64,000 nt of DNA, taken from assembly GCF_003947415.1 (NCBI RefSeq), contig NZ_QHKL01000001.1, forward strand, positions 558,001 to 622,000, written 5' to 3'. Shown piece after piece: positions 11,035 to 15,428 of this stretch (the first letter of the stretch is position 1; each line of letters starts with the position of its first letter). Below the pieces are notes generated by a model. That model searched no databases. It was given only the letters and a program-made list of their open reading frames with translations, and had not been told where the DNA came from. This DNA is from Amycolatopsis sp. WAC 01376 (GTDB lineage Bacteria; Actinomycetota; Actinomycetes; Mycobacteriales; Pseudonocardiaceae). Both the position numbers and the translations under genes were made by a program.

Positions 11035-11115
11035 GCGGTGCCGCGTCACCCCAGGGTCACCTTCCCCTCAATAACCGTCCTTATCACTCACGAGGTCCAG
11101 CACCAGGGATGTCAC

Positions 11116-11299
11116 GTGACTGAACGGACGACACGCGTGATCCGGCGGACGACACACGTGACTGGACGAACGACACGCGTGATCCGGCGGACGACACACG
11201 TGACTGGACGAACGACACGCGTGATCCGGCGGACGACACGACCGCGGCCGAGGGTTCCGCAGCGAGTCGTCCGCCTGATCACGTGTGTCGTCCGTTCAG
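11116..11299. repeat. 42-bp tandem repeat (three units) plus one inverted unit
   Basis: Units start at 11116, 11158 and 11200, each beginning GTGACTG and containing ACGACACGCGTGATCCGGCG; the third is cut short near 11240. An inverted unit lies at 11267-11299. Each direct unit can therefore fold with the inverted one into a long hairpin. The region is between convergent genes. No repeat-associated genes are nearby, and the direct adjacency of the units excludes a CRISPR array. Confidence 0.8.
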
Positions 11300-11371: not shown

Positions 11372-13999
11372 CTAGCCCGCGCCAAGGCAAAGGAAGGGCC
11401 GCCGCAGCGGGTCGGCGGCGGTCGCTTCGGCGAGTGCCAGGGCGGGCGCGGTCCCCGAGGCCAGCCGACGGTGCAGATCCGCCATCGCTTCGGCGGCGGC
11501 CTTGTCCCCGACCCGCGCGATCGCGCCGATGACCGTCCGCGATCCGCTGGCGAGCAGCGTCCCGGCGAAACCGAGCGCCTCCTCGCCGGGCCGGATGTGA
11601 CTCATCGCGAGTTCGCACGCGGCCAGCACCACCCGTTCCGGCGGCTTCGCGAGCCGCGCGGTTTCGTGCGCGTACAACGGGCCGTCGACGAGTTCCAGCC
11701 GCGAGAACAGCGCGTTCGCCGGTTCGTGCGCGCCGTGCGCGACCAGGTGTGCCATCCCGGAACCGTCCAAAGCGGACAGTACGGCTTCGCTGGTCGCGTC
11801 CTTACCGTCGACGAGCCTGGCGTGCGGGTACACCGTCCGCAGGTTCCGCACCTCACCGACCGAACCCGGCACACCGGGCCCGCCGGCGAGCAGGACCGGG
11901 CCGGAGTTCCGCCGTCCCGACGCGCTCACCCATGCGGTCGCGGACGGCGCGATCGACACCGGATGTCCGTGCAGTGACGGCAAAGCACCCCACGGCAACG
12001 CGTACAGCGAGCCGATCGGCACGATGATCAGCTCGCGGTTCTGCAGCGTTTTCGCCAGCGACGCCGAGATCAGTGTGTCCAGTTTGTCCGCCCGGCGCCG
12101 CGCGGAACCGGTGACGACCTCGACGAGCGGCGCGGGCAGGTTGTCCGGGGCCAGCGCGTCGAGGTCCGCGTGCAACTGCCGCGCGGTCTCGACGATCTCC
12201 GCGAGCGGCCCCAGCTTCAGCAGCCGGAACCGGCCGTGGTCGACGACCACCGCGTACAAGGTGTCGCGATACCCCATGAGGCTGACCAGCACGCGATCGC
12301 CGAGCCGCTCCACCACCTCTTCGGGTGTCGACACCGGCCGCGGACGACCCCATTGGCTGGTGTACCACCCGAGCCGGGTCGCCTCCTGCTGCAACCGGTC
12401 GTAGCGTTCCTCGAGCTTCCCGACCGGTTCGCCGGACAACCGCCGCGCCTGGATCGTCCCCTGCACGTGCCGCATTTCGTTGATGTGCCGGGCGAGCGCC
12501 GGATCTTCGATGACCGGGAGCGGTTCGTAGCGGTACACCTGCGCGCGCGTGCGTTCCAGCCACGCGAACAGGCTCTTCGCCCCGGCGCCGCTACGCCTCG
12601 CCTTCTTGAGCACCAGTGTGAGCGCGAGTTTGCCCAGTTCTTCGCCGTGCGCCGCCGTCCCGCAGACGAGGTCGAGCCCGCCCATGCGGTCGCGGATCTG
12701 CCCGAGTTCCGCCAACCCTGCGCGCGCCTGCGCGAGCGCCGAACGCGGCCGATGCGACGCCACCGCGAGTTCGGCCCGGCACAACCGCAGCTGCATCCGG
12801 TGGTCGATCGGCGTCGTCTGCCGCGGTTTCGGTACCTGCGCCAGGAGTTCCTGCGCGGCGACCGTCTCTTCGCGACGGATCAGCAACCGCACCGCGAACA
12901 TCCTGGCCGCGCCCGCTTCGTCGCGCAGACCGAGTCCGGCCAGCCGGATTGCGAGATCGGCCAGCCGCCCCGGCAGTTTCGCGGACGGCTTCTTCTCCCG
13001 GTCCGCCAGCACCTTCACCGCGTCCGCGCGGAGCCGGGTCAACGCGGCGATCTCCGCCCAGCGGCCCTTGCCACGCCGCAGGAAACTCCGCCGTGCCGAC
13101 GCCGCGAGCTTCTTCGCCAGCGGGTAGTCGCGTTCCAGGATGGCGGCACCGGCCCTGGCGACCTCCGCCTCCGCGACGAGGTGCACCGCGCCGTTGTGCC
13201 GCAGTTCCGGGATGGCGTCGTCGAGATGCCGCGCGGCCTCTTCGGCGAGGCCCGCGGTCAGCAGCGCCTTCGCCTGGTCGAGCCGGACGAGCGGCAGCGA
13301 GCCGGGGCCGTCGGTCACGAAGATCGCGGCCGCCTGCTCGTAGTGCCGGAGCGCTTCCGGGATGTCCCCGAGCAGCTGCGCGTGATCACCGAGGTTGTGC
13401 CGGATCTTCCCTTCCAGCAACCGATGGCCGTGCTCGACAGCGAGGTCCGACGCCTCGACGAGGTCGCGGTACGCCGCGTCCGGGTTGCTCATTTCCAGAT
13501 GCAGCCACGCGCGGTTCACCAGTGACCGGGTGAGCACCGCGCTGTACTTGCCCGCCTCGGCGGCGAGCCCGGGGAGGAAGGCGTTGTTGAGCGCGAGCGA
13601 CTCCTCCAGCCGTCCGGCTCGCATCAGGACGACGGCACGCTGGAGCCCGACGACGAAGCGCAGCTCGTGGCGGACATCGCCACCCGGCAGCAGGAGCCGG
13701 ATGCGTTCCGCCTCGTCCAGCCGGGCGAAACCGTCCTCTTGGGACACGAACTCCGCCTCGGCCGCCGCCAGGCTGATCAGGATCCGGACCCGGATCTCCA
13801 GCCGGGCGACCAGATCCGCGTCCACCGGACCGAGAAGTGCGAGCGCGCGCCGAAGCAGCCGTATCGGCCTGCTGAGCCCGTGATCCGAGGCGGCGGCCCT
13901 CGCCCGGCGATGGAGTTCGGCCGCTTCCTCGGCTACGGGATCGACGACAGGAGGAGACGGCGCGGGCACACGCACTATGGGAGCACACCCACGCCGCAT
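11372..13999 (-). CDS. TPR-CHAT protein (caspase-like protease with helical repeats)
   Basis: 875 residues. Residues about 20-480 are helical TPR-like repeats (ALRHYEQAAAIF, ARHLDDAIPEL and similar); residues about 560-875 form a CHAT domain, the caspase-HetF fold. The catalytic dyad is visible: His755 in HLVAHGAH and Cys795 in LAACELAMS, followed by the ALGFAGTLLASGSRTVIG block. CHAT proteases are often activated by the helical part sensing a signal. It lies 18 bp after a small beta-sandwich gene that is coupled to an ECF sigma gene, so all three are one operon. The likely role is signal-dependent cleavage of a partner; the nearest candidate is the middle protein (inference). Confidence 0.87.
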   Translation of the reverse strand: MRRGCAPIVRVPAPSPPVVDPVAEEAAELHRRARAAASDHGLSRPIRLLRRALALLGPVDADLVARLEIRVRILISLAAAEAEFVSQEDGFARLDEAERIRLLLPGGDVRHELRFVVGLQRAVVLMRAGRLEESLALNNAFLPGLAAEAGKYSAVLTRSLVNRAWLHLEMSNPDAAYRDLVEASDLAVEHGHRLLEGKIRHNLGDHAQLLGDIPEALRHYEQAAAIFVTDGPGSLPLVRLDQAKALLTAGLAEEAARHLDDAIPELRHNGAVHLVAEAEVARAGAAILERDYPLAKKLAASARRSFLRRGKGRWAEIAALTRLRADAVKVLADREKKPSAKLPGRLADLAIRLAGLGLRDEAGAARMFAVRLLIRREETVAAQELLAQVPKPRQTTPIDHRMQLRLCRAELAVASHRPRSALAQARAGLAELGQIRDRMGGLDLVCGTAAHGEELGKLALTLVLKKARRSGAGAKSLFAWLERTRAQVYRYEPLPVIEDPALARHINEMRHVQGTIQARRLSGEPVGKLEERYDRLQQEATRLGWYTSQWGRPRPVSTPEEVVERLGDRVLVSLMGYRDTLYAVVVDHGRFRLLKLGPLAEIVETARQLHADLDALAPDNLPAPLVEVVTGSARRRADKLDTLISASLAKTLQNRELIIVPIGSLYALPWGALPSLHGHPVSIAPSATAWVSASGRRNSGPVLLAGGPGVPGSVGEVRNLRTVYPHARLVDGKDATSEAVLSALDGSGMAHLVAHGAHEPANALFSRLELVDGPLYAHETARLAKPPERVVLAACELAMSHIRPGEEALGFAGTLLASGSRTVIGAIARVGDKAAAEAMADLHRRLASGTAPALALAEATAADPLRRPFLCLGAG

Positions 14000-14017
14000 A
14001 ACGGAACAGCCGTCCGG

Positions 14018-14497
14018 TTAGAGCACCACTGTGGGGGTCACGACGGTCCTGCGACAGGTCACGTCACCGAGGTGGATCACGATCTGGGTGGTGCCCTGGG
14101 GGACGTTGTCCAGCACGAATCGGCCTCCCTCGTCGGCGGTGGTGGAACTCGTGCCGTGCTCGGCCACGCGAACCTCCACTCCGTACTCGCCGGCGGGCAC
14201 GAGCCAGCCGTCGATCCGGTGTTTCTTGCCGATCTTGGTGAGGTTGATCATCACGGTCAGGTCGCTGACGGTGAAGGTGATCGTGCCGGTGTCGCTGCCA
14301 CGGACGCCTGCCGTGGCGTCCATCCGTTCCCAGCGGGCGACCTCGACGTCGAGGTTTTCGAGCGCGAGCGCGAACTGAACCCGCTGCACCAGATCTCCCG
14401 GCGGCGGGTCCAATTCGTCCATGAAGCGCCCGATATCGGCGAGCAGGTCCTCATCGCCCGGGGAGGTCATCTCCCCCGGCGTCCCGAGGTCGTTCAT
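14018..14497 (-). CDS. small protein with predicted beta-sandwich, between sigma factor and CHAT protease
   Basis: 159 residues. The N-terminal 50 residues are acidic and helical (DEDLLADIGRFMDELDPPP). The remainder is beta-rich and reads like a carboxypeptidase-regulatory/transthyretin-like sandwich (GWLVPAGEYGVEVRV, DEGGRFVLDNVPQGTTQIVIH). The start ATG 14497 overlaps the sigma stop as ATGA, with AAGGGGGAAG upstream, so translation is coupled. It has no zinc motif or membrane segment, unlike usual anti-sigma factors. Position suggests it either holds the sigma factor or is a substrate of the CHAT protease; neither is shown. Start at 14545 was rejected for lack of a ribosome site. Confidence 0.75.
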   Translation of the reverse strand: MNDLGTPGEMTSPGDEDLLADIGRFMDELDPPPGDLVQRVQFALALENLDVEVARWERMDATAGVRGSDTGTITFTVSDLTVMINLTKIGKKHRIDGWLVPAGEYGVEVRVAEHGTSSTTADEGGRFVLDNVPQGTTQIVIHLGDVTCRRTVVTPTVVL

Positions 14498-15099
14498 CGG
14501 CTTCCCCCTTCGTGGGCCAGCAGGTCGCGCATCGATTCGAGGCAACGGCCCCTGGTCGGGCCGACACTTCCGCGCGGCATACGGAGTGCTTCGGCGACCA
14601 GTTGGTATTCGGCCCGCCCGGCGAGCACGGTCAGCCGAAGGAGCTGCTGACAGCGGTGCGGCAGGCGGAGGAAGGCGCGCCAGACCCGGCGATCCCGGTC
14701 GGCGCGGACGGCTTCCTCCTCGGGAGCCGGATGGGTGCTCTCCATGCTTTCGGCCAGCTCGTCGGTCAGCGGGACGGGCTGGGCGCGGCGGCCGAAAGGA
14801 TGCTGTGCTTCACGTCTGGTGGTGGTGATCAACCAGGCGGCGAGCGCCTTGGGGTCACGAAGTTTGTCGAGCTGACTGAAGAGGGCGAGCCACACCGTCT
14901 GGACCACGTCCTCGGCGGTCAGGCGATCGAGCCCGTTCGCACGCGCGACATGCCACACGAGCGGGGTCAGCTCGTGCACAAGTCTGTCCATCGCCTGGCG
15001 GTCACCGGCGCGGGCCGCACGCATACAGGCGGCATGCAGGTCGGCACCGGTCAGTCCTTCCCATGGCGGGTCTACCTCGGTCGTTTGCACGTCGGTCAC
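14494..15099 (-). CDS. ECF-type RNA polymerase sigma factor
   Basis: About 201 residues from GTG 15099. Region 2 spans roughly residues 20-95, with LTAEDVVQTVWLALF and WLITTTRREA. Region 4 has LRLPHRCQQLLRLTVLAGRAEYQLVAEALRM, though the usual second half of the helix-turn-helix is unusual (RGSVGPTRGRCL, the typical pattern of this actinobacterial class). The frame stays open far upstream (to 15414), but the upstream residues are low-complexity and no sigma region starts earlier, so I place the start at GTG 15099; GTG 15090 is an alternative. First gene of the sigma, small-protein, CHAT operon. Confidence 0.82.
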   Translation of the reverse strand: MTDVQTTEVDPPWEGLTGADLHAACMRAARAGDRQAMDRLVHELTPLVWHVARANGLDRLTAEDVVQTVWLALFSQLDKLRDPKALAAWLITTTRREAQHPFGRRAQPVPLTDELAESMESTHPAPEEEAVRADRDRRVWRAFLRLPHRCQQLLRLTVLAGRAEYQLVAEALRMPRGSVGPTRGRCLESMRDLLAHEGGSR

Positions 15100-15428
15100 C
15101 GTATCTGCCCCACTTCGGACGTGTCTTCGTGTCGGCGCTGGCAGTATCGCGGGCCTTTCGGGGAAAAGGAGCGTGCAAGAGGCTCTGGGATACATCAAGT
15201 CACTAACTTTTTTGTCGGGTTTCCGGTCGTCCCCCTCGAGGTGGGCGAGGACAAAGGCACCGGCCGGCGCGAGTAGGTGTGGACTGCGCACCGGCCGGCC
15301 CTTTTTCCCTCCCCCCGGGCCCGCTCCCCAACGGGCCCGCGTCCGGGCGTCCCCCTCCCCCGAAGGAGCACCCGGAGGTGATGCCCGGAGGCCCCCTCGG
15401 CCTCCGGACATCACCTGTCTGTGTTAAT
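15100..15428. other. 329-bp intergenic region upstream of the sigma operon
   Basis: It contains the promoter region of the sigma gene, a GC-rich stem of the type GGCCGGCGC/GCG..CCGGCC followed by a T-run on the plus strand (about 15262-15307, no plus-strand gene upstream), C-rich sequence, and the hairpin at 15376-15416. No coding sequence is supported. Confidence 0.6.
15376..15416 (-). terminator. 18-bp hairpin downstream of the small Pro-rich gene
   Basis: Arms 15376-15393 and 15399-15416 pair with one mismatch (AGGTGATG, CCGGAGGCC and complements) around a 5-nt loop. It sits 12 bp after the stop of the minus-strand gene at 15429-15596. No T-run follows. Confidence 0.65.

Follow-up and report, generated by a model that had tools for sequence, protein, structure and literature searches.

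The stretch of DNA considered here, the window, comprises 64,000 nucleotides of Amycolatopsis sp. WAC 01376 (contig NZ_QHKL01000001.1, positions 558,001 to 622,000 of the forward strand), and our subject within it is a run of three genes encoding an extracytoplasmic function (ECF) sigma factor, a small middle protein that we call MID, and a large protein that joins tetratricopeptide repeats (TPR) to a CHAT protease domain. The genes lie on one strand, the first two coupled by an ATGA and the third starting 18 bp after the MID stop, all at the positions given by a first-pass annotation made from the letters of the DNA alone. The features on which the argument depends are these.

14494-15099, minus strand: ECF sigma factor gene, 201 aa, GTG start; open reading frame (ORF) confirmed.
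14018-14497, minus strand: MID gene, 159 aa; ORF confirmed.
11372-13999, minus strand: TPR-CHAT gene, 875 aa; ORF confirmed.
14494-14497, minus strand: ATGA overlap of the sigma stop and the MID start, read in the sequence.
14300-14302, minus strand: Arg66 codon of MID; the residue sits in the loop that joins helices and sandwich and is the proposed cleavage site.
11735-11737, minus strand: codon of catalytic His755, invariant in a 60-row alignment.
11615-11617, minus strand: codon of catalytic Cys795, invariant in the same alignment.

The annotation of the first gene as an ECF sigma factor stands, with matches to Pfam Sigma70_r2 (E = 5.8e-11) and NCBIfam sigma70-ECF (E = 1.2e-19), and its profile matches the SigH/SigE structures. 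The protein is 99.5 percent identical to the sigma factor of A. keratiniphila. Cys150 and Cys186 in its C-terminal half are invariant in 20/20 aligned relatives. A start codon at the equivalent 4-nt overlap is present in 61 of 93 homologous sigma-MID pairs.

The TPR-CHAT protein matches Pfam CHAT (E = 4.4e-26) and TPR_2 (E = 1.1e-6), and its 875-aa model has TPR-like helices at about 21-470 followed by the protease domain at about 471-875. The His755/Cys795 dyad, which the annotation had pointed out, is indeed kept: both residues are present in 81 of 85 CHAT rows, the other 4 comprising 3 ORFs cut by a contig end and 1 split ORF, and they align with the corresponding pair in DdvA and in Csx29. 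The model has similarities to Csx29, to DdvA, which is an anti-sigma factor, to gingipain R, and to separase, an arginine-specific clan-CD protease, the closest being Csx29 and other clan-CD proteases; identity to separase and gingipain R is 16 and 9 percent. Searched by sequence against the PDB, the CHAT profile hits DdvA best (E = 3.3e-10), and Pfam and NCBIfam scans find no anti-sigma family in the TPR-CHAT protein. The same genome also carries, on contig C22, a relative of the CHAT domain inside a 1589-aa AAA_16-TPR-CHAT protein (L245:5740-10506), whose gene is adjoined by those of small proteins that we take to resemble effector-associated domains.

MID had been described as a small beta-sandwich protein. 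The sandwich is there, but it is not the whole protein, as in the predicted model (mean predicted local distance difference test, pLDDT, 87.4; predicted template modeling, pTM, score 0.67) two helices at 13-29 and 36-49 and a loop at 61-69 precede it, and the loop falls within the lowest-confidence internal block of the model (64). Pfam returns sub-cutoff matches only, the best to CarboxypepD_reg, of carboxypeptidase regulatory-like domains (E = 0.0019), and no peptidase family was found with Pfam or NCBIfam. Foldseek of the model against the PDB gives 780 matches at E = 10 and 0 at E = 0.001; a metal-binding protein and Ig/FN3-like chains head the list, all weaker than that. Two residues, Arg66 and Phe127, do not vary in a 96-row alignment. 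Over 235 rows (217 unique), position 66 is Arg in 231, the four others being 3 gaps (2 indels and 1 broken frame) and 1 His, and the next residue is Gly, Ser, or Ala in 220. The loop looks like a cleavage site because a near-invariant basic residue is followed by a small one in a low-confidence interdomain loop, and Arg66 is perhaps where the chain would be cut, judging from alignment and model together; it may instead serve a structural or binding role.

A clue to what MID does comes from its remote relatives. In other classes there are long MIDs of 204-216 aa (L259, L260, L277, and relatives in one family), and in 16 of 19 of these the first ~75 residues match NCBIfam's model for anti-sigma factors at E ≤ 0.1, the best at 6.5e-7, with PRK13920 anti-sigmaE matching 4 of the 19. 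The long and short families align with each other (hhalign probability 98.0, E = 1.6e-13) across a PP-L helix, the loop Arg, and the sandwich. We think that MID is a soluble anti-sigma factor or the descendant of one. At one locus (L046:7947-8867) sigma and MID form a natural one-frame fusion in which the sigma region-4 part looks degenerate; no further fusion was found among 24 genomes of that family beyond the starting genome, and when the fusion was aligned with rows of the individual sigma and MID proteins, the sigma ones fell on its MID half. At L124 the MID frame includes part of the sigma factor, possibly through a frameshift.

The first-pass annotation had named conserved co-occurrence in other genomes as a check on its proposal, and the genes do travel together. 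MID was found in 36/36 genus genomes searched (the window's own included), in at least 122 of 394 genomes of the class (17-row alignment, 9 candidates per genome scored), and, phylum-wide, in at least 28 of the 296 genomes searched, including 20 that belong to other classes (96-row alignment, 12 candidates scored). We fetched 100 MID loci, 20 from the genus search and 80 from the class search, spread over genera; some of these stretches end at contig ends, and 79 have 5 kb on both sides. A sigma gene lies on the same strand within 1.5 kb of MID at 95 of the 100 (75 of the 79 with full flanks), a CHAT of the family lies within 6 kb at 81 (68 of the 79), and so does a subtilase at 75 (63 of the 79), a protease that the annotation had missed. 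All four families are together at 71, and 14 (8 with full flanks) have sigma and MID without either protease family. The subtilase assignment was checked with Pfam on ten neighbours of 389-588 aa, of which 10/10 have Peptidase_S8. The gene order seen most often is subtilase-sigma-MID-CHAT (24), followed by subtilase-sigma-MID with a CHAT pointing the other way (18). At the 20 loci from the phylum search there are 18 sigma, 13 CHAT, and 12 subtilase genes, and 80 named loci found by way of the sigma factor have MID at 75, CHAT at 46, and subtilase at 23, a tally that speaks less strongly for CHAT.

Where CHAT is not beside MID, it can lie elsewhere in the genome. Of 30 orthologous loci in the genus, 21 carry a CHAT within 1.5 kb of MID, and a genome-wide search at E = 1e-60 finds CHAT in 32/32 MID-positive genomes, including those without a local copy. 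At E = 1e-30 it is found in 3 of 33 genomes without an earlier MID match, and all 3 have sigma and MID right beside it. The resulting profile is CHAT in 35/35 MID-positive genomes versus 0/30 others, the 30 having their MID status from the earlier searches and many coming from one family. For 14 genomes with a CHAT-less MID locus, the CHAT elsewhere adjoins a subtilase in 11 (L235-L242, L249, L252, L253); the distant CHAT loci without one are L243, which starts at a contig end, L250, and L251. Many loci of Lentzea, Actinokineospora, and Saccharothrix retain sigma and MID alone, and the CHAT-less named relatives L157, L158, L161, and L171 share the window's outer neighbours GDSL and FUSC. The window genome carries three CHATs of the family, with no subtilase of this type in the 64-kb window and none at E = 1e-25 in the genome (51 of 135 candidates scored), as in 7 other genomes of the 32 MID-positive set; this makes the window, as far as gene content goes, a reduced version of a four-part system.

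The best reading of the locus, we think, is a protease acting on a sigma factor through the middle protein, because the unit is conserved, the CHAT model is like Csx29 and other clan-CD proteases, and the remote MIDs have an anti-sigma-like domain. MID would bind and restrain the ECF sigma factor, and a signal sensed by the TPR part would activate the CHAT protease. The protease would then cut MID in the loop that links its sigma-facing helices to the sandwich, the likeliest place being just after Arg66, and the freed sigma factor would turn on its regulon, with the subtilase joining in in many lineages. Put in full, the locus would be a stand-alone, soluble switch of the ECF54 type, a statement in which our belief and our doubt are about equally balanced. 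The stand-alone protease-to-sigma switch of the first-pass annotation is supported in part, on these three points; it is not new in outline, and it left out the subtilase and the loci of the genus where MID has no CHAT next to it.

Several observations weigh against this reading. At 9 of the 30 orthologous loci of the genus no CHAT lies within 1.5 kb of MID, two of these (L246, L247) having none in 14-15 kb either, and 34 of the 80 named loci found through sigma have no CHAT in the fetched stretch. A close relative, L300 (MID at 2033-2509), has His at position 66 with its CHAT dyad intact. The three printed anti-sigma scores of long MIDs are 13.7, 15.9, and 23.3 bits versus a cutoff of 100 bits, and in the PDB these proteins match NOMO2 best (E = 1.4e-6, in the sandwich part), with the anti-sigma factor RskA at E = 0.53. 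Among short MIDs, the window's included, matches to the anti-sigma model number 0/96 at E = 0.1, and the anti-sigma-like part of the long ones mostly precedes the region alignable to the window MID, so the short MID may have lost that part. Covariation between sigma and MID (202 pairs, effective 123) points clearly neither way, with 24 of the 50 top couplings in the N-terminal part, which holds 46 of the 134 columns. Across 56 loci the four families show correlated distances (r 0.74-0.82), but this correlation still contains the species tree and in part reflects it.

The rival that survives best, though we consider it unlikely, keeps the proteases and changes their substrate: they would act on sigma itself, with MID as an adaptor or cofactor presenting sigma to CHAT or to the subtilase. 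This is the published proposal for the sigma group ECF54, which section 3.3 and Table 2 of the review (PMC8999054) place under proteolysis without an anti-sigma factor, with the proteases acting on sigma, and it is favored by the short MIDs, where no anti-sigma similarity appears. Against it stand the anti-sigma-like domain of the remote MIDs and the near-invariant Arg in the least confident internal loop. Cutting of MID and the ECF54 proposal differ in one point, namely which protein gets cut.

Somewhat harder to credit is an arrangement in which MID need not be cut and TPR-CHAT, bound to the MID-sigma pair, acts as a scaffold under ligand control, a role that the equivalent region of DdvA may also have. 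The top PDB match to DdvA, which has TPR-CHAT with the aligned His and Cys, speaks for it. Against it, the dyad is retained in all CHAT rows other than the 4 cut or split ones, a sign of catalysis, and the module is accompanied by another protease family.

Quite improbable, in our estimate, is that the proteases are the output, sigma driving a proteolytic programme for cell death or defence and MID inhibiting CHAT or the subtilase. CHAT relatives do occur in other settings, the AAA-TPR-CHAT protein of L245 being one, but sigma-MID pairs stand without a nearby protease of these families at the 14 loci counted above, no defence neighbours were seen in the flanking ORFs examined, and MID is in every genus genome searched. 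As for chance neighbours, the notion keeps practically no probability, since 95 of 100 MID loci from other genomes have sigma, 81 have CHAT, and 75 have the subtilase, and the genome profile agrees.

The first-pass annotation had offered defence as a possible role. With PADLOC, 10 flanking ORFs, 3 of which have no Pfam match and are possibly wrong frames rather than genes, gave an ABC ATPase as the sole match (mad3, AriA, and others, all generic ATPase matches), and the three locus proteins gave one weak match, CHAT to BovA at E = 0.057. The flanking genes belong to the families FUSC, polyketide cyclase, GDSL, NAD-binding, TetR, MarR, and ABC. Among the identifiable immediate neighbours there is no cas gene, so that the trio does sit without Cas genes in its immediate flanks, as the annotation had it. 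Defence is unsupported, because MID is in all 36 genus genomes and the identifiable neighbours are ordinary, and a defence island was set aside on the PADLOC result.

Upstream of the operon, the alignment of the 30 orthologous genus loci brings out one further feature.

15189-15207, minus strand: conserved block upstream of the sigma gene, sequence GTTAGTGACTTGATGTATC.

The block is clear in most of the 30 and unclear in L027-L029, and by its position it is perhaps the operon promoter or operator. A scan of the genome gave 1 exact copy, 1 with 2 mismatches, and 10 with 3, the reversed control pattern having 0 copies in the same scan; 9 of the 12 overlap called genes, and one of the other three is the copy of the operon itself. 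Copies with 2 and 3 mismatches (L132 and L133, site 1501-1519 in each; C3:124695 and C11:635784 of the window's own genome) sit 56 and 201 bp ahead of other genes, which are possible members of the same regulon. The block was rejected as a means of defining the regulon and is kept as a lead only. The gap that separates the CHAT stop from the following gene holds, at 11113-11239, about 3 tandem copies of a 42-bp unit made of 21-bp halves.

The module subtilases have lineage-specific short tandem peptide repeats, mostly of 6-7 aa, ahead of the catalytic domain, such as NPHGRT, APFTRG in 8 copies, and GYGDGV in 7 (L033, L098, L100, L107, L114, L124, L072, L073, L080, L031, L113). A strict repeat test is passed by 11 of 77 subtilases versus 2 of 84 CHAT ORFs. 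A looser one is passed by 30 of 77 versus 7 of 77 shuffled, and says little because 79 of 84 CHAT ORFs pass it too. The repeats could be sites of processing or precursors of peptides.

Control of a sigma factor by a protease is not a new proposal, as the gene context here matches the account of ECF54 in the review (PMC8999054), a sigma group in the context of carboxypeptidase, subtilase, and CHAT proteins for which proteolytic control is suggested. Compared by gene context rather than by the group's profile, the window has the ECF sigma factor, the CHAT protein, and a protein probably equivalent to the one labelled carboxypeptidase; it lacks the subtilase that 75 of the 100 homologous loci have. 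By this analogy the ECF54 "carboxypeptidase" is probably MID. What is already known is therefore the outline, a protease-controlled sigma factor of ECF54 type; what is new is the reading of MID (a helical segment plus a sandwich, showing no peptidase domain) and of its loop Arg66, together with the behaviour of CHAT in cis and in trans, its profile over genomes, and the links to DdvA and separase. Our literature search turned up the ECF review, Craspase papers, and passages of an eLife 2021 article as relevant items; in the readable text it found no tested mechanism for sigma/CHAT/subtilase loci, and none of the papers that it listed names DdvA.

Alternative sigma factors with adjacent CHAT and subtilase genes are widespread in Actinomycetota. 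Should MID prove to be the substrate, then what is labelled "carboxypeptidase" in ECF54 is really a cleavable anti-sigma factor, and its cutting site is open to a test by one point mutant. We would go further only tentatively: MID could be an unrecognised family of soluble cleavable anti-sigma factors across Actinomycetota, its TPR-CHAT partner an arginine-specific, separase-like protease that opens the loop at the near-invariant Arg, the subtilase an amplifier in many lineages, and the Craspase of CRISPR an RNA-guided offshoot of a wider CHAT-to-sigma signalling. Gingipain R is Arg-specific by the title of its structure (1cvr).

Among the other known systems, the eLife 2021 passages (PMC8195603) describe a caspase-ECF-TPR gene neighbourhood of another kind, with a transcriptional output proposed. 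There too a caspase-type protease, TPR, and an ECF sigma factor are encoded together; the domains differ (EACC2, DUF1822), and those passages mention no MID-like protein. DdvA is titled a transmembrane anti-sigma factor with a CHAT domain in PDB entries 8rot and 8rw5, one chain bearing both names, whereas here MID and CHAT are separate. Csx29 is therefore not the sole precedent, since an anti-sigma factor also carries a TPR-CHAT region. By sequence the window CHAT falls outside the Csx29 family (NF041237 score 19 versus a cutoff of 300), and Csx30 was not found in the PDB by sequence from the 159-aa MID, nor by Foldseek of its model at E = 0.001. In type III-E CRISPR, Csx29 cleaves Csx30, a sigma factor inhibitor, as reported in PMC10028731. 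That system and the window share a TPR-CHAT protease, a middle protein, and an ECF sigma factor and differ in the cas genes, none of which is among the identifiable neighbours here. If MID is the substrate, the Csx29-Csx30-sigma logic of CRISPR gains a widespread, RNA-independent counterpart.

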